A DNA stretch of 64,000 nucleotides from Flavobacteriia bacterium 40-80 (GCA_001899145.1 MKVF01000021.1:124001-188000); one strand, 5' to 3'. Counted from the first letter of the stretch, positions 5,791 through 12,338 are shown. Translations and numbers: made by a program. The notes: generated from the letters alone by a model not told the origin.

Positions 5791-5845
5791 TTAAACGATT
5801 GCCGGAGAAGGGGTTTGAAGTCTCTTCCCGTGGATCCGGTATCGT

Positions 5846-5871
5846 TTTGGAACGAAATAAAACTATATTTG
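5846..5871 (+). promoter_or_regulatory. Promoter for the 5911 repeat-protein gene
   Basis: TATATTTG at 5864-5871 is an exact TAnnTTTG -7 element, with TTTG at 5846-5849 upstream (spacing 14, shorter than usual). It lies downstream of an in-frame ATG at 5815, so it argues for translation from 5911. A short inverted repeat CCGAC-ATAG-GTCGG (5884-5897) lies in the leader. Confidence 0.5.
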
Positions 5872-5910
5872 CAGTCTAATCACCGACATAGGTCGGAAAA
5901 ACTATATTCT

Positions 5911-7518
5911 ATGAATAAAAAACTACATTTATTATTTTTAAGCTCAACATTAAGCTTTGGTGCGTTTGCACAATTTCAGCTTACTTCTCAGGATTGGACG
6001 ATCCCGGTGATGGAACAATATGCCGAAGACCTGGATCAGGTGAATGGGCTTAATTACAGCTTAGTAGATATCAATGGCGATGGAAAAGCTGACCTGGTAG
6101 ATGCGCGCCAGAATGGAGCTACGACAGTTTGGATGACAAGCTCCAACGTTCCTTACTGGAAAGTGTACCTGAATAACGGAAGCGGGTTCAGTGCTGTTGC
6201 AGAAAACTGGACGATCCCGGTAATGGAGCAGTATGCCGAAGACCTGGATCAGGTAAACGGAGCGAATTATAGTTTGGTAGATATCAATGGTGATGGAAAA
6301 CCTGACCTGGTAGATGCGCGTCAGAATGGAGCCACGACAGTTTGGATGACGAGCTCCAACGTTCCTTACTGGAAAGTGTACCTGAATAACGGAAGCGGGT
6401 TCAGTACTGTTGCAGAAAACTGGACGATCCCGGTGATGGAGCAGTATGCCGAAGACCTGGACCAGGTAAACGGAGCGAATTATAGCCTGGTGGACATCGA
6501 TGGTGATGGAAAACCTGACCTGGTAGATGCGCGTCAGAATGGAGCCACAACAGTTTGGATGACAAGCTCAAATGTTCCTTACTGGAAAGTTTACAAAAAC
6601 ACCGGTACGGCTTTCAATCTCACAGCAGAAAACTGGACGATTCCTGTGATGGAGCAGTATGCCGAAGACCTGGATCAGGTAAATGGATTGAACTATAGTC
6701 TGGTGGACATCGACGGTGATGGAAGACCTGACCTGGTAGATGCGCGTCAGAATGGAGCCACAACAGTTTGGATGACAAGCTCGAATGTTCCTTACTGGAA
6801 AGTTTACAAAAACACCGGTACGGCTTTCAATCTCACAGCAGAAAACTGGACAATTCCTGTGATGGAGCAGTATGCAGAGGATCTGGATCAGGTAAACGGA
6901 GCGAATTACAGTTTGGTAGATATGAATGCCGACGGCATACCTGACCTGGTGGATGCACGTAAAAACGGGACTTCTACCGTTTGGATGACGAGTTCCAATG
7001 TTCCTTACTGGAAAGTGTACCTGAACAGCGGAAGTGAGTTTCGTACTGTTGCAGAAGACTGGACGATTCCGGTGATGGAGCAATATGCAGAGGATCTGGA
7101 CCAGGTAAATGGATTGAACTATAGCCTGGTGGATATCAATGGAGACAAGAAACCTGATCTGGTGGACGCGCGTAAAAATGGCACTTCTACCGTTTGGATG
7201 ACGAGCTCCAATGTTCCTTACTGGAAGGTCTACCTCAATACTTCCGTATCTCCATGGCTGGGGGTTGAAGAACAGGAAAAACTGAAAACGCTGAATGTTT
7301 ACCCGAATCCATCCAACGGACTGATCCACGTGAATTTGTCTGATATGGAAAACGAAAGCCGTATTATGATTTACAACAGTATAGGAGCGATTATTCACAA
7401 TGAAACGGTCAACACATCCGATTTCACATTTGACCTGACAGCTTACGAAACAGGATTGTATTTTATTACAGTACAAAACAGCAATCAATCCTATACTGCA
7501 AAAGTGATCAGGAAGTAA
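5911..7518 (+). CDS. T9SS-secreted protein made of six near-identical VCBS/FG-GAP-like repeats
   Basis: I chose the ATG at 5911 because it starts a clear signal peptide (MNKKLHLLFLSSTLSFGAFA) and follows a promoter; an in-frame ATG at 5815 lies upstream of that promoter. After the signal peptide come six tandem 71-residue repeats, the last one shorter. Each holds an acidic DINGDGKPDLVD-type loop, which resembles the calcium-binding loops of VCBS/FG-GAP blades, and the invariant strings PVMEQYAEDLDQVNG and WMTSSNVPYWKVY. The C-terminal 80 residues are a T9SS sorting domain (VYPNPSNGLIHV to AKVIRK). It is probably a cell-surface six-bladed propeller. Function and ligand are unknown. The repeats are almost identical at DNA level, which suggests recent duplication or gene conversion. 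Confidence 0.87.
   Translation: MNKKLHLLFLSSTLSFGAFAQFQLTSQDWTIPVMEQYAEDLDQVNGLNYSLVDINGDGKADLVDARQNGATTVWMTSSNVPYWKVYLNNGSGFSAVAENWTIPVMEQYAEDLDQVNGANYSLVDINGDGKPDLVDARQNGATTVWMTSSNVPYWKVYLNNGSGFSTVAENWTIPVMEQYAEDLDQVNGANYSLVDIDGDGKPDLVDARQNGATTVWMTSSNVPYWKVYKNTGTAFNLTAENWTIPVMEQYAEDLDQVNGLNYSLVDIDGDGRPDLVDARQNGATTVWMTSSNVPYWKVYKNTGTAFNLTAENWTIPVMEQYAEDLDQVNGANYSLVDMNADGIPDLVDARKNGTSTVWMTSSNVPYWKVYLNSGSEFRTVAEDWTIPVMEQYAEDLDQVNGLNYSLVDINGDKKPDLVDARKNGTSTVWMTSSNVPYWKVYLNTSVSPWLGVEEQEKLKTLNVYPNPSNGLIHVNLSDMENESRIMIYNSIGAIIHNETVNTSDFTFDLTAYETGLYFITVQNSNQSYTAKVIRK
5992..7239 (+). repeat. Six tandem 213-bp coding repeats
   Basis: Units start at 5992, 6205, 6418, 6631, 6844 and 7057, exactly 213 bases apart, each beginning with the codons for (N/D)WTIPVMEQY. 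The sixth ends about 30 bases early. Units 1-5 differ mostly at synonymous sites and in the short NNGSGFS or NTGTAFN segment. Confidence 0.93.
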
Positions 7519-8167: not shown

Positions 8168-8256
8168 GAAAATATATTTTATAGGAGTAAATGTAATCCA
8201 ATTTAAGATTCAGAAACAGAACCATATTTATTTTAATAGGTAAAAATTATTTCGGA

Positions 8257-8291
8257 TATTTTTGTCTTAAATAAAAAATTGTTTATTTTTG
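8257..8291 (+). promoter_or_regulatory. rrf2 promoter region with operator half-site
   Basis: TATTTTTG occurs at 8257-8264 and again at 8284-8291. The TTTG at 8261-8264 is 19 bases before the second copy, so it can act as its -33 element. Immediately after it is GTCTTAAAT (8264-8272). The string TATTTTTGTCTTAAAT is nearly the same as 8771-8785 in front of the downstream operon, which suggests autoregulation by the Rrf2 protein. Confidence 0.6.
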
Positions 8292-8311: not shown

Positions 8312-8746
8312 ATGTTTTCAAAAGCTTGTGAGTACGGTATAAGAGCGATTATTTACATTGCAACGCAATCCATGGAAGGAAAGCGTGTAAAAATCGGGGA
8401 TATCGCAAAGAACTCGGATACTCCGGTAGCATTTACCGCAAAAATTCTCGGATTGCTTACAAAAAATAATATCGTGCTTTCCCAAACAGGCCCCAACGGT
8501 GGTTTTTACATCGAATTAAATCAAATGAACGACATAAAGCTGGGCGACATCGTAACAGCAATAGATGGTGATACTATTTACAAAGGCTGCGCATTGGGAT
8601 TAAAAGAATGTGATAATGAAACGCCTTGTCCGATGCATGACAAATTTATCAAAGTAAGAGAAGATCTGAGAAGAGTATTGGATACAACAACAGTGCATGA
8701 TCTGGCAATGGGATTAAAGTCCGGCAGATCTGTTTTGATGAGGTAA
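8312..8746 (+). CDS. Rrf2-family Fe-S transcriptional regulator, NsrR-like
   Basis: The 144-residue protein has the Rrf2 winged-helix N-terminus (MFSKACEYGIRAIIYIA, then the GPNGGF wing at about residue 62) and, in the C-terminal half, three cysteines in the pattern GCALGLKECDNETPCPMHD. That spacing is the [2Fe-2S]/[4Fe-4S] ligand set of NsrR and IscR. NsrR-type proteins lose repression when NO attacks the cluster. The genes that follow (truncated haemoglobin, Ric) are classical NO-response genes, so an NsrR-like role is favoured over IscR; no isc or suf genes are adjacent. An operator-like sequence sits both at its own promoter and before the downstream operon. Confidence 0.8.
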   Translation: MFSKACEYGIRAIIYIATQSMEGKRVKIGDIAKNSDTPVAFTAKILGLLTKNNIVLSQTGPNGGFYIELNQMNDIKLGDIVTAIDGDTIYKGCALGLKECDNETPCPMHDKFIKVREDLRRVLDTTTVHDLAMGLKSGRSVLMR

Positions 8747-8760
8747 AAATTTTTTGAACC

Positions 8761-8786
8761 AATTTAAGACTATTTTGTCTTAAATT
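8761..8786 (+). promoter_or_regulatory. Perfect inverted repeat, putative Rrf2/NsrR-type operator of the NO operon
   Basis: The two 10-base arms AATTTAAGAC and GTCTTAAATT are perfect reverse complements separated by TATTTT. The centre plus right arm reads TATTTTGTCTTAAAT, which almost repeats 8257-8272 before the regulator gene. TATTTTG may be part of the -7 element, so a bound protein would block transcription. The first ATG of the operon follows at 8802. Confidence 0.65.
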
Positions 8787-8801: not shown

Positions 8802-9089
8802 ATGGCTAAAACACAAAAATCATGGTTTGATGTTCAGGCTGAAAAGTTTGAAGCAACTCGTCTTGGTTCCATGTCATGGATGATCACAGCTCAAAGCTGC
8901 TGGGCTTCAATTGCTGCAGCCTTAGCATTACAGGACAATAATTATGAATCCCTGGCGGTTGTTGCTGTTCTGGCGATGGCATCCAACGCCGCTTTTATTG
9001 CCCAAGGCCCTGGGAAATGGTGCATCGGCATTTTTTACACTAGTGTTGTTATGAACTTATTAATCGCGGTATGGCATCTGATACAATGA
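8802..9089 (+). CDS. Small membrane protein of the NO-type operon, unknown function
   Basis: The 95-residue protein has a polar N-terminus of about 20 residues and roughly three hydrophobic segments (around 25-45, 48-68 and 73-94). It carries conserved-looking tryptophans and isolated Cys and His residues that could touch haem or metal, though that is only a possibility. I do not recognise the family. It is the first gene after the operator palindrome, and its stop codon overlaps the start of the truncated haemoglobin gene (ATGA at 9086-9089), so the two are translationally coupled and probably work in the same response. Confidence 0.7.
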   Translation: MAKTQKSWFDVQAEKFEATRLGSMSWMITAQSCWASIAAALALQDNNYESLAVVAVLAMASNAAFIAQGPGKWCIGIFYTSVVMNLLIAVWHLIQ

Positions 9090-9475
9090 AAAGTGATATA
9101 CTGTCACTAAAAGAGGTGAAAATACTGGTGGATTCGTTTTACGGGAAAGTCCGGAAAGATGAATTGCTGAAAGATATATTTGACAATGTCATTCAGGATA
9201 GATGGGAAGCCCATCTGGATAAGATGTACCGCTTTTGGCAGACAGTATTGCTGGAAGAACATACATACAGCGGCACTCCGTTCACACCGCATGTGAAGCT
9301 GCCGGTGGAAAAAAAGCATTTCGACAGGTGGATTGCGCTGTTCTTTGAAACGGTCAACGAGCACTTTGAAGGAGAGAAGGCTGAAAAAGCTAAGTGGCAG
9401 GGAGAGCGGATGGCAGAAATGTTTTTAATCAAGATCGAATATTACCGTGAAAATAACTTAACTCCGCTGGCATGA
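9086..9475 (+). CDS. Group III truncated haemoglobin
   Basis: The protein has about 129 residues from the ATG at 9086, which gives an ATGA overlap with the previous stop; another in-frame ATG lies at 9071. It matches the group III 2-on-2 globins: ILSLKEVKILVDSFYGKVRKD at the start, the FWQTVLL segment with the E helix, HVKLPV, and KKHFDRWIALF with the proximal haem histidine on the F helix. Such globins bind O2 and NO and are thought to help in NO detoxification. Position in an operon with an Rrf2 regulator and ric supports that role. The stop overlaps the next start by four bases (ATGA). Confidence 0.87.
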   Translation: MKSDILSLKEVKILVDSFYGKVRKDELLKDIFDNVIQDRWEAHLDKMYRFWQTVLLEEHTYSGTPFTPHVKLPVEKKHFDRWIALFFETVNEHFEGEKAEKAKWQGERMAEMFLIKIEYYRENNLTPLA

Positions 9476-9918
9476 AGATCTCTTATCAGTTTTTGATTAT
9501 TGCAGCAGGTTTTTTATGGATCGGATTTGTCGGTGCGATCAGCTTTATGGAGGCATGGCTTAAATTCCGGGCACCCGGAATTACGGTTCCGTTAGGTTTA
9601 GGGATCGGAAGAATCGTTTTCAGCGCGCTGAACAAAGTGGAATGGTGTCTGGCAATTATAATTTTTATAAGCCTGGCACTGAACAAGGGAACATCACTTT
9701 TCCGCATGGATAATTTGTTTTATCTGATTCCTGTTCTGGTCCTCATAATCCAGACCTTCTGGTTGCTGCCGGCGCTGGATTTCCGCGCAGAGCTTCATAT
9801 ACAGGGAGCTGACGTTCCTGCTTCCAGCCTGCATTTTGTATATGTAGGATTAGAATTACTGAAAATTATCAGTCTCTCCGCTTTTGGAATATTACTTTAT
9901 AAAATAATTATAAGATGA
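9472..9918 (+). CDS. Four-helix membrane protein of the NO-type operon, unknown function
   Basis: The 148-residue protein has about four hydrophobic segments (residues 5-25, 55-75, 82-102, 122-147) and a loop WLLPALDFRAELHIQG between the third and fourth. The residues KVEW and the Asp/Arg/Glu cluster in that loop are the only polar features near the membrane. I cannot name a family. It overlaps both neighbours by ATGA junctions (9472-9475 and 9915-9918), so it is certainly part of the operon with the globin and the dioxygenase. Confidence 0.7.
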   Translation: MKISYQFLIIAAGFLWIGFVGAISFMEAWLKFRAPGITVPLGLGIGRIVFSALNKVEWCLAIIIFISLALNKGTSLFRMDNLFYLIPVLVLIIQTFWLLPALDFRAELHIQGADVPASSLHFVYVGLELLKIISLSAFGILLYKIIIR

Positions 9919-10838
9919 GCATAAATAACATTATTGGTGAAATAGAAGAAAAATACCTGCAGCTGGGAGAAAACCCGGAAACGTACCTGAAAGGATTGCT
10001 ACAGACAAAACCGATTAATTACTGGGATTACATACAAGTGGATACATTGCTTTCCCTTCAGAAAACAAGAACGGATTTCAAGGACGAGGTCATCTTCGTC
10101 ATGTATCACCAGGTAACGGAGCTAATCCTTAAAATGGTGCTGCACGAGATCCGACAGATGGTTGATGAGGAATTTGATGAAGAGGTCTGGATCGAAAAAT
10201 TTAATCGCTTGAACCGCTATACATCCATGCTGATCACCTCATTTGATGTGATGAAATACGGAATGAATTATGATGATTATAATACGTTCAGAAGCACGCT
10301 TACACCTGCAAGCGGCTTTCAGTCAGCACAATTCCGGTTTATAGAGATCTGCTGTACACAGTTACAGAACCTGATCAATGAACAAGGAAGAGAACGTATC
10401 GGCGAAAACCCGGGAACAGAAGAATATTTCGAACACATTTACTGGAAAGATGCCGGTTATAATCGAAAAACAGGGAAAAAATCGCTGACATTAAGGCAAT
10501 TTGAAGAAAAATACCTGAATGATTTTATCGCTCAGGCAAAAAAAGTGAAAGGAAATACACTGGAAGAAAAAATTCTTGGACAGCCACATATATCAGAAAA
10601 GCTGGTGGAAAAAATGAAAGAATTTGACCGTTTTTATAATGTGGAATGGCCGCTTGTGCATCTGGAAACAGCCCGGCATTATCTGGACAGTAAAGGAGAA
10701 AACAAGGCAGCGACAGGAGGCTCGGAATGGAAAAAATACCTGCACCCGCAATTCCAGCAACGAAAGTTTTTCCCTTCCTTATGGACAGAAGAAGAGCGGA
10801 CTAACTGGGGAAATAAACAGGTTCTTAAACATACCTGA
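9915..10838 (+). CDS. kynA: Tryptophan 2,3-dioxygenase family protein
   Basis: This 307-residue protein matches haem-dependent tryptophan 2,3-dioxygenase, which opens the indole ring of L-tryptophan to N-formylkynurenine. Visible signatures are YWDYIQVDTLLSLQ (36-49), YHQVTELILK with the active-site His65, TPASGFQSAQFR (130-141), VHLETARHYL with the likely proximal haem ligand His249, ATGGS (266-270) and the C-terminal FFPSLW. All expected substrate and haem motifs seem present, so it should be active. The other kynurenine-pathway genes are not adjacent. Instead it sits, with ATGA overlap, inside an operon of NO-response genes, which is unusual. Confidence 0.88.
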   Translation: MSINNIIGEIEEKYLQLGENPETYLKGLLQTKPINYWDYIQVDTLLSLQKTRTDFKDEVIFVMYHQVTELILKMVLHEIRQMVDEEFDEEVWIEKFNRLNRYTSMLITSFDVMKYGMNYDDYNTFRSTLTPASGFQSAQFRFIEICCTQLQNLINEQGRERIGENPGTEEYFEHIYWKDAGYNRKTGKKSLTLRQFEEKYLNDFIAQAKKVKGNTLEEKILGQPHISEKLVEKMKEFDRFYNVEWPLVHLETARHYLDSKGENKAATGGSEWKKYLHPQFQQRKFFPSLWTEEERTNWGNKQVLKHT

Positions 10839-10839
10839 T

Positions 10840-11619
10840 ATGAATGTAGCTGACTTCAATAAAGTTCCCGGACACTGGATCCTTGCTAAAATGGGAAAAA
10901 AAGTGCTGCGTCCCGGAGGTAAAGAGATGACTTTAAAATTAATAAAGAATTTAAACATTTCTCAAAATGATCAGATAGCTGAATTTGCGCCTGGCCTGGG
11001 ATTCACGGCAAAGCTCGCCCTTGCTCAAAATCCTGAAACATATACAGGTATTGATGCGGATCCGGACGTGATCCGGCGACTAAACCAAAAGCTGGCTAAG
11101 AATGGTACTGTTACTTTTCACGAAGGAAATGCAGCCGAGACAAAGCTGCCCGCGGAAAGTAAAGATAAAGTTTTTGGAGAAGCCATGCTGACAATGCACG
11201 CAGACCACCGGAAATCGGACATAATCAGGGAAGCACACCGGATTTTAAAGAAAGGAGGTCTGTATGCCATTCACGAAATGGGATTACACCCTGATAAACT
11301 GGATGAAAATATAAAAGCAGCAATTCAGAAAGACCTTGCACTGGCAATTAAAGTCAATGCGCGCCCGCTGACGGTGCAGGAATGGAAAAGCCTGCTGGAA
11401 CAGGAAGGCTTTACAATAAAGACGACAATTACCAATTCGATGCACTTGCTGAAACCGCTGCGAATAATTGATGATGAAGGTTTTTTCAGAACCTTGAAAA
11501 TAATGAAGAATATTTTGTTTAATCTACATGCCAGAAAACGCATTCTGCAAATGAGAAAGGTTTTTAGTAAATATGAAAATCAATTGAATGCGGTAATGAT
11601 TGTGGCAGAGAAAATATAA
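10840..11619 (+). CDS. Class I SAM-dependent methyltransferase
   Basis: I place the start at ATG 10840, one base after the dioxygenase stop; a longer in-frame reading from 10624 would lie inside the dioxygenase gene. The 259-residue product has the Rossmann SAM-binding motif I (IAEFAPGLGFTAKLAL), the acidic ribose-binding strand TGIDADPDV and the post-motif region HRILKKGGLYAIHEMGL typical of UbiE/Methyltransf_11 enzymes. The substrate cannot be predicted. Its position between the dioxygenase and ric makes it part of the same transcription unit. Confidence 0.8.
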   Translation: MNVADFNKVPGHWILAKMGKKVLRPGGKEMTLKLIKNLNISQNDQIAEFAPGLGFTAKLALAQNPETYTGIDADPDVIRRLNQKLAKNGTVTFHEGNAAETKLPAESKDKVFGEAMLTMHADHRKSDIIREAHRILKKGGLYAIHEMGLHPDKLDENIKAAIQKDLALAIKVNARPLTVQEWKSLLEQEGFTIKTTITNSMHLLKPLRIIDDEGFFRTLKIMKNILFNLHARKRILQMRKVFSKYENQLNAVMIVAEKI

Positions 11620-11624
11620 GAACC

Positions 11625-12338
11625 ATGGAAATTTCAATTAACAGCATTATAGGCAATATGGTGGCCAAAGATTACCGGATGGCTTCCGTATTTCAGTCTT
11701 ACGGAATTGATTATTGCTGTAACGGAAACAGAACAATCCGCGAAGTCTGTAATGAGAGAAATATAGAGCCGGAGCTATTGATCGAAAACCTGAATAAGAT
11801 CACCGGCGAAAACGGAACGAGAAAAACAGATTATAATTCCTGGCCGCTCGACCTGCTGGCGGATTACATTGAAAAAACACACCATCGTTATGTAGAATCT
11901 AAAATTCAGGAAATAAAGCCATTGCTGCAAAAGATCGTCAGCGTACATGGACAACAGCATCCGGAGTTGAAGAAAGTGGAGAAGTTATTTTCCGAATCGG
12001 CAGATGAGCTAACCGTGCACATGAAAAAAGAAGAATTGATGCTTTTCCCTTTTATACGGAAAATAGCACAGCATCCGAATGAAAAACTAACCGCTCCTTT
12101 CGGAAGTGTCAAAAATCCCATTGCAATGATGCACCAGGAGCATAATCTCGAAGGAGAGCGTTTCCGCCAGATTTCCTCACTAACAAATAATTACACACCT
12201 CCTGCAGATGCCTGCAATACATATAGAGTAACATTTGCTTTGCTGAAAGAATTTGAAGAAGACTTGCATTTACATATCCACCTGGAAAATAATATTTTAT
12301 TTCCCAAATCCATGGAAATGGAAAGCGCGCTTGCATAA
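11625..12338 (+). CDS. ric: Iron-sulfur cluster repair di-iron protein Ric (YtfE/ScdA)
   Basis: The 237-residue protein has the ScdA N-terminal domain (SIIGNMVAKDYRMASVFQSYGI, then DYCCNGNRTIREVC, residues about 7-43) followed by a hemerythrin-like di-iron domain. The iron ligands are visible as H in THHRY, HMKKEE, MMHQEHNLE and HLHIHLENNILFP. Ric proteins donate iron to damaged clusters and can act on NO. It is the last gene of the operon and is preceded by a 5-base gap. It strongly supports an NO/nitrosative-stress role for the whole cluster. Confidence 0.93.
   Translation: MEISINSIIGNMVAKDYRMASVFQSYGIDYCCNGNRTIREVCNERNIEPELLIENLNKITGENGTRKTDYNSWPLDLLADYIEKTHHRYVESKIQEIKPLLQKIVSVHGQQHPELKKVEKLFSESADELTVHMKKEELMLFPFIRKIAQHPNEKLTAPFGSVKNPIAMMHQEHNLEGERFRQISSLTNNYTPPADACNTYRVTFALLKEFEEDLHLHIHLENNILFPKSMEMESALA

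Follow-up and report, generated by a model that had tools for sequence, protein, structure and literature searches.

The 64,000-nucleotide stretch of Flavobacteriia bacterium 40-80 DNA analysed here (GCA_001899145.1, MKVF01000021.1:124001-188000; the window) contains, at positions 8802-12338 and 3' of a gene for an Rrf2-family regulator (rrf2), an operon in which a gene for tryptophan 2,3-dioxygenase (TDO) lies among genes of the kind used in nitric oxide (NO) defence. The operon is real, and its arrangement is far beyond chance because it recurs across Bacteroidota: linkage, defined as a gene for Rrf2, truncated haemoglobin (trHb) or Ric on the same strand within 6.5 kb of the TDO gene, was found for 64 of 101 members of the TDO clade to which the window protein belongs and for none of 47 canonical Bacteroidota TDOs (Fisher p 1e-15, not phylogeny-corrected). 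On balance we consider it somewhat probable that a working TDO, co-induced with NO defences under the control of an Fe-S repressor of the NsrR type in a one-operon regulon, keeps NAD synthesis running; NAD supply would then probably be tied to NO defence in these Bacteroidota, with NO as the presumed signal and NAD as the presumed purpose.

ORF calling gave six same-strand genes after rrf2, whose neighbours overlap or are separated by no more than 5 nt. The preliminary description had proposed a five-gene operon following an Rrf2/NsrR-like regulator; open reading frames and family matches confirm the operon and the regulator, and the gene count is corrected to six. The features are as follows, the occurrences given being those among the 53 linked loci that remain when identical TDOs are removed.

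8248..8273, + strand: predicted operator 1, TATTTCGGATATTTTTGTCTTAAATA, 64 bp 5' of the rrf2 start, with 7 of 10 arm positions paired
8312..8746, + strand: Rrf2-family regulator, NsrR/IscR-like (PF02082, 91.3 bits), with Cys93, Cys100 and Cys106 (C-x6-C-x5-C); 47 loci
8761..8786, + strand: predicted operator 2, the perfect inverted repeat AATTTAAGAC-6-GTCTTAAATT, located in the gap that separates rrf2 from the operon
8802..9089, + strand: small membrane protein of 95 aa (memb95); 19 loci
9071..9475, + strand: group III trHb (PF01152, 30 bits; PDB 2ig3, E 3e-14); 43 loci
9472..9918, + strand: membrane protein of 148 aa (memb148); 36 loci
9915..10838, + strand: TDO of a distinct Bacteroidota clade, judged from PF03301, residues and fold
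10840..11619, + strand: S-adenosylmethionine (SAM)-dependent methyltransferase, an optional member (Methyltransf_11, 49.5 bits); 10 loci
11625..12338, + strand: Ric/YtfE/ScdA di-iron Fe-S repair protein (TIGR03652, 243 bits); 36 loci

The memb95 and globin genes overlap by 19 nt, the gap between TDO and methyltransferase is 1 nt, and that between methyltransferase and Ric is 5 nt. The ATGA junctions said earlier to tie the TDO gene to the globin block are present as overlaps at globin/memb148 and memb148/TDO. Neither memb95 nor memb148 matched any Pfam or NCBIfam family above its cut-off. The globin and Ric assignments of the preliminary description were borne out, since the group III truncated haemoglobin 2ig3 was the sole PDB match of the globin and Ric, with an ScdA_N and a hemerythrin domain, exceeded the TIGR03652 equivalog cut-off of 204.7. 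The 2ig3 protein is Campylobacter jejuni Ctb, which belongs to an NO-induced regulon; the window globin, of the same group, differs in its setting, in an Rrf2 operon and adjoining a TDO gene.

The window TDO scored 83.7 bits with Pfam PF03301, above the cut-off of 34.9, and 98.8 bits with the NCBIfam equivalog TIGR03036, far under its cut-off of 390.7, the clade lying outside the range of that model; by these scores the protein is a divergent TDO. Its PDB sequence matches are TDO structures. The distal His65, Arg126, Ser133, the proximal His249 and Thr267 are invariant in 101 of 101 clade members, and the window protein, like each of the 101 clade sequences, has equivalents of Xanthomonas Phe51, His55, Tyr113, Arg117, Ser124, His240 and Thr254. 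The set checked thus comprises the distal His, the substrate-pocket Arg, Tyr/Phe and Ser, the proximal haem His and the Thr of the GTGGS loop, roles that we take to be those of the residues in the Xanthomonas structure, and all are present. The best Foldseek matches of the AlphaFold model (mean pLDDT 79) were TDO structures, with PrnB much weaker; TM-scores were modest (0.4-0.5) and rmsd was high, and the model supports the TDO fold family, not its details. The protein therefore shares the fold and all checked active-site and haem residues with bacterial TDO (KynA; Xanthomonas 2nw7, Ralstonia 2nox), but it falls in a clade separate from the usual Bacteroidota TDO, to which it is about 45% identical, and its operon setting is NO defence, not kynurenine genes.

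TDOs in 399 genomes of the order formed two sets that differ in identity to the window protein, an abundant one (about 45%) and a less common one (59-75%). When 84,980 species genomes were scanned, 80 loci of the less common kind emerged, nearly all labelled Bacteroidota. The two sets split with SH support of 100 in a tree made with fasttree only, in which long branches were flagged. The control of 0 in 47 is slightly weakened by flanks of only 1.5 kb at some of the canonical loci; linkage to Rrf2, trHb or Ric was likewise absent from the 14 (L059-L066, L081-L086) for which longer flanks were available. The operon is accordingly more than a one-off, and the restriction to a single genome that the preliminary description named as refuting does not hold. 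At L086 (7331-8731) a canonical TDO gene adjoins a divergently transcribed gene whose product, a truncated globin, shares 32% identity with that of the window, and at L061 a memb95-like gene adjoins a canonical TDO gene. Further members recur in the operons of relatives, namely a hemerythrin, an HTHP haem protein, a plastocyanin/azurin-family protein, a ferredoxin-like protein, a CcoN-like (cbb3-like) oxidase and a FixO-cytochrome c protein. The COX1-like protein of these operons was considered as an NO reductase and rejected, as it aligns to cbb3 CcoN with three His and the active-site Tyr kept (alignment read by eye). At four loci (L131, L135, L153 and L163) a clade TDO gene without Rrf2, trHb or Ric closes a cbb3 oxidase operon (CcoN-like, CcoG-like, FixH, DsbD_2-like), a hint of an additional connection with haem or oxygen. 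No report of the present operon was found in the literature searched, and its novelty is limited to the literature covered.

The three cysteines of the regulator were conserved in 57 of 57 orthologues, and Glu7 in 52 of 57. The protein is classed as NsrR-like, not NsrR, because its score with the NsrR equivalog (36.2 bits) is below the cut-off of 182. Operator 2 is the sole zero-mismatch site in the 3.5 Mb genome. Of 48 distinct regions upstream of rrf2, 34 contain a dyad with a GAY-N6-RTC core, in most cases between -61 and -66, and often a second copy follows rrf2; the number in dinucleotide shuffles was 0.17. The arms covary between species (for instance AGTGG/CCACT, CGG/CCG, AAAGG/CCTTT), as those of a dyad bound by a protein should. 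When 12 whole genomes were scanned for the exact pattern GGAYA-N4-TRTCC, 12 distinct sites were obtained, 11 of them at the TDO operon, and none with the reversed pattern used as control; where two sites occur the second lies about 513 bp after the first, in other genomes as in the window. Five of the 12 genomes, including the present one (G000), had no exact-pattern site, the G000 operators differing at the last C of the core. Since the mismatch-tolerant pattern (up to three mismatches) gave fewer matches in this genome than its reversed control (25 against 101), a wider regulon was dropped and only the perfect site was used. The core of operator 1 (window 8257-8264, TATTTTTG) is identical to TAnnTTTG, as in 16 of 39 operator-1 sites, and TAnnTTTG is the Bacteroidota -7 promoter consensus. 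Promoter occlusion at operator 1 is not claimed, there being no TTTG (-33 box) 19-21 nt upstream.

The twelfth exact site (G415:C7, L184) lies between the gene for an rrf2 paralogue (47% identical) and that for a flavohaemoglobin (NF009805, 515 bits, cut-off 432), the usual NO-detoxifying protein, whose gene the site precedes; a second dyad of the same operator class was found upstream of this paralogue-flavohaemoglobin operon; positions 245-2431 of the locus hold a cupin-like gene, the rrf2 paralogue, the flavohaemoglobin gene and the two dyads. This site is the strongest link to NO, because flavohaemoglobin (hmp) and Ric (dnrN) are core NsrR targets (PMC1274295), and it speaks for the NO-type character first ascribed to the operon. 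Like the present system, described NsrR regulons (Rodionov 2005, PMC1274295; Streptomyces NsrR, PMC9338935) combine a small Rrf2 regulator in which three Cys are conserved with dyad operators, one of them 5' of the regulator's own gene, and have hmp and Ric/dnrN as targets; Legionella glbN is an example of a globin in a sole-target operon. Here, however, the operator core is another one, and a type III globin and a tryptophan dioxygenase are included. The word "tryptophan" is absent from PMC1274295, where Bacteroides is listed with HcpR, not with NsrR.

As noted in the preliminary description, no kynurenine genes adjoin the operon; kynureninase and 3-HAO are encoded elsewhere in the genome. 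In a sample of 32 chosen genomes (29 with TDO, 3 without), kynureninase was present in 29 of 29 TDO genomes and in none of the three TDO-free ones (p 2e-4), and 3-HAO in 28 of 29 and in none, respectively. NadA was present in all three TDO-free genomes; a profile search found none in many TDO genomes, G000 included, with a model that detects NadA in 12 of 14 control genomes. Genome G214, listed as 100% complete, has kynureninase and two TDOs and no 3-HAO match. The search for IDO as an alternative enzyme gave no matches, but its control was also silent, so that absence is unproven.

In nine genomes (G000, G006, G026, G167, G184, G216, G290, G300 and G416) linked clade members are the only clear TDOs, and all nine keep kynureninase and 3-HAO; for G006 and G026 "only TDO" is to be read with a weak PF03301-like or TDO-like match in a frame of 512-519 aa. 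In G006 (G412:C1:639294-639551) this is a partial PF03301 match of 40 bits in a 519-aa frame, perhaps a further haem enzyme resembling TDO. The Aequorivita and Mesonia genomes tested have no TDO other than an unlinked clade member, and both downstream enzymes are present, which suggests that the clade can serve as an ordinary TDO. Because clade members are the sole TDO in genomes that keep kynureninase and 3-HAO, real TDO activity in the clade, the conversion of tryptophan to N-formylkynurenine, is very likely.

Genome G000 itself has two TDOs, both linked to trHb, one with Rrf2 and operators and the other, on contig C6, without. The second (G000:C6, L054 7608-8939) is a clade TDO directly 3' of a second trHb. 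Its further neighbours are an MFS transporter on the upstream side and a thioredoxin-like protein on the downstream side, and neither an operator nor an Rrf2 gene was detected nearby. As no NadA was found in the genome, the only de novo route to NAD in G000 appears to be the one supplied by these two trHb-linked TDOs. The two copies could divide the work simply, one being basal and the other induced.

NO destroys Fe-S clusters and binds haem, and quinolinate synthase, NadA, is an Fe-S enzyme. In the mechanism that we favour, the Rrf2 protein would be an Fe-S repressor of the NsrR type bound to the two dyads, 5' of its own gene and 5' of the operon. Destruction of its cluster by NO would release both operators, and the derepressed operon would supply a globin for protection, Ric for Fe-S repair and a catalytically competent TDO, which opens the kynurenine route to quinolinate and NAD. 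Fresh TDO, with globin and Ric, could keep quinolinate flowing while NO blocks haem enzymes, and in relatives with NadA, the Fe-S enzyme of the aspartate route, TDO would provide a route without Fe-S. In mammalian cells, NO raises the haem content and activity of TDO at low exposure and lowers them at high exposure (PMC10220489). More tentatively, and with doubt outweighing confidence, the clade may be regarded as an NO-induced subfamily of TDOs whose partner, a type III globin, would shield or serve it; the subfamily would form an NO-wired entry to NAD that replaces or backs Fe-S-dependent NadA in part of the Bacteroidota.

Several points weigh against the mechanism favoured here. A regulator of the Rrf2 family need not respond to NO and may have iron, Fe-S status or redox as its signal. 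The four clade TDOs that end cbb3 (cco) operons are as compatible with oxygen or haem as with NO. Because TDO depends on O2 and ferrous haem, it would itself be NO-sensitive, not an obvious choice under NO. Finally, since the C6 copy exists with a trHb and without detectable operator or Rrf2, the operon copy need not be the source of NAD.

The regulator might instead sense Fe-S status, iron, redox or oxygen, the operon being a general haem or low-oxygen programme with TDO as one haem enzyme in it. In agreement with this, the top-scoring NCBIfam equivalogs for the Rrf2 protein were IscR and SUF regulators, all far below cut-off, and cbb3-like oxidase genes co-occur, four loci lying at the end of an ordinary cco operon. 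We nevertheless hold it to be unlikely, given that Ric and trHb III are typical NO genes, that the same operator flanks the flavohaemoglobin gene beside the rrf2 paralogue, and that the core targets of NsrR include Ric (dnrN) and hmp (PMC1274295). It is decidedly improbable that TDO acts as an NO sink, its ferrous or ferrous-oxy haem trapping NO or oxidising it to nitrate. Such a role would suit a haem protein co-located with other NO-reactive proteins, but a stoichiometric sink would need no tryptophan-binding residues, yet these are invariant in 101 of 101 sequences; among the genomes sampled are some that keep the kynurenine pathway with clade members as their sole TDO, and trHb and, elsewhere, Hmp already do the job. 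Of the two roles suggested at the outset, changed tryptophan catabolism fits better and is refined here to feeding of the kynurenine/NAD route, whereas the sink role found no specific support, with catalytic residues fully conserved and the clade providing the sole TDO of the Aequorivita and Mesonia genomes tested.

Capture of an ordinary housekeeping TDO by an NO operon, in which it would be a passenger with no NO-related role, seems very improbable; some clade members are indeed unlinked housekeeping genes in Flavobacteriaceae, but the linkage is retained in widely scattered Bacteroidota although the neighbours are reshuffled, and in many linked genomes there is a second, separate TDO. We give least credence to kynurenine made under NO stress leading to another product or signal, such as a methylated or nitrated tryptophan derivative, with the operon methyltransferase as partner: this gene lies directly 3' of the TDO gene here and in 10 related loci, but most linked loci are without it, and the downstream kynurenine enzymes are present in these genomes.

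If true, co-induction of TDO with NO defences would add a metabolic arm, from tryptophan to NAD, to bacterial NO defence, and would define an NO-type Rrf2 regulon and its operator in Bacteroidota. A divergent, widespread TDO clade and two uncharacterised membrane families would gain a function, and whether NAD supply limits survival under NO becomes testable.

Upstream of these genes, the window contains 5.8 tandem copies of a 213-bp unit (5995-7235) inside an ORF at 5815-7518. The repeats encode near-identical 71-aa units (NWTIPVMEQYAEDLDQVNG...), and the C-terminal tail of the ORF is typical of sorted surface proteins.

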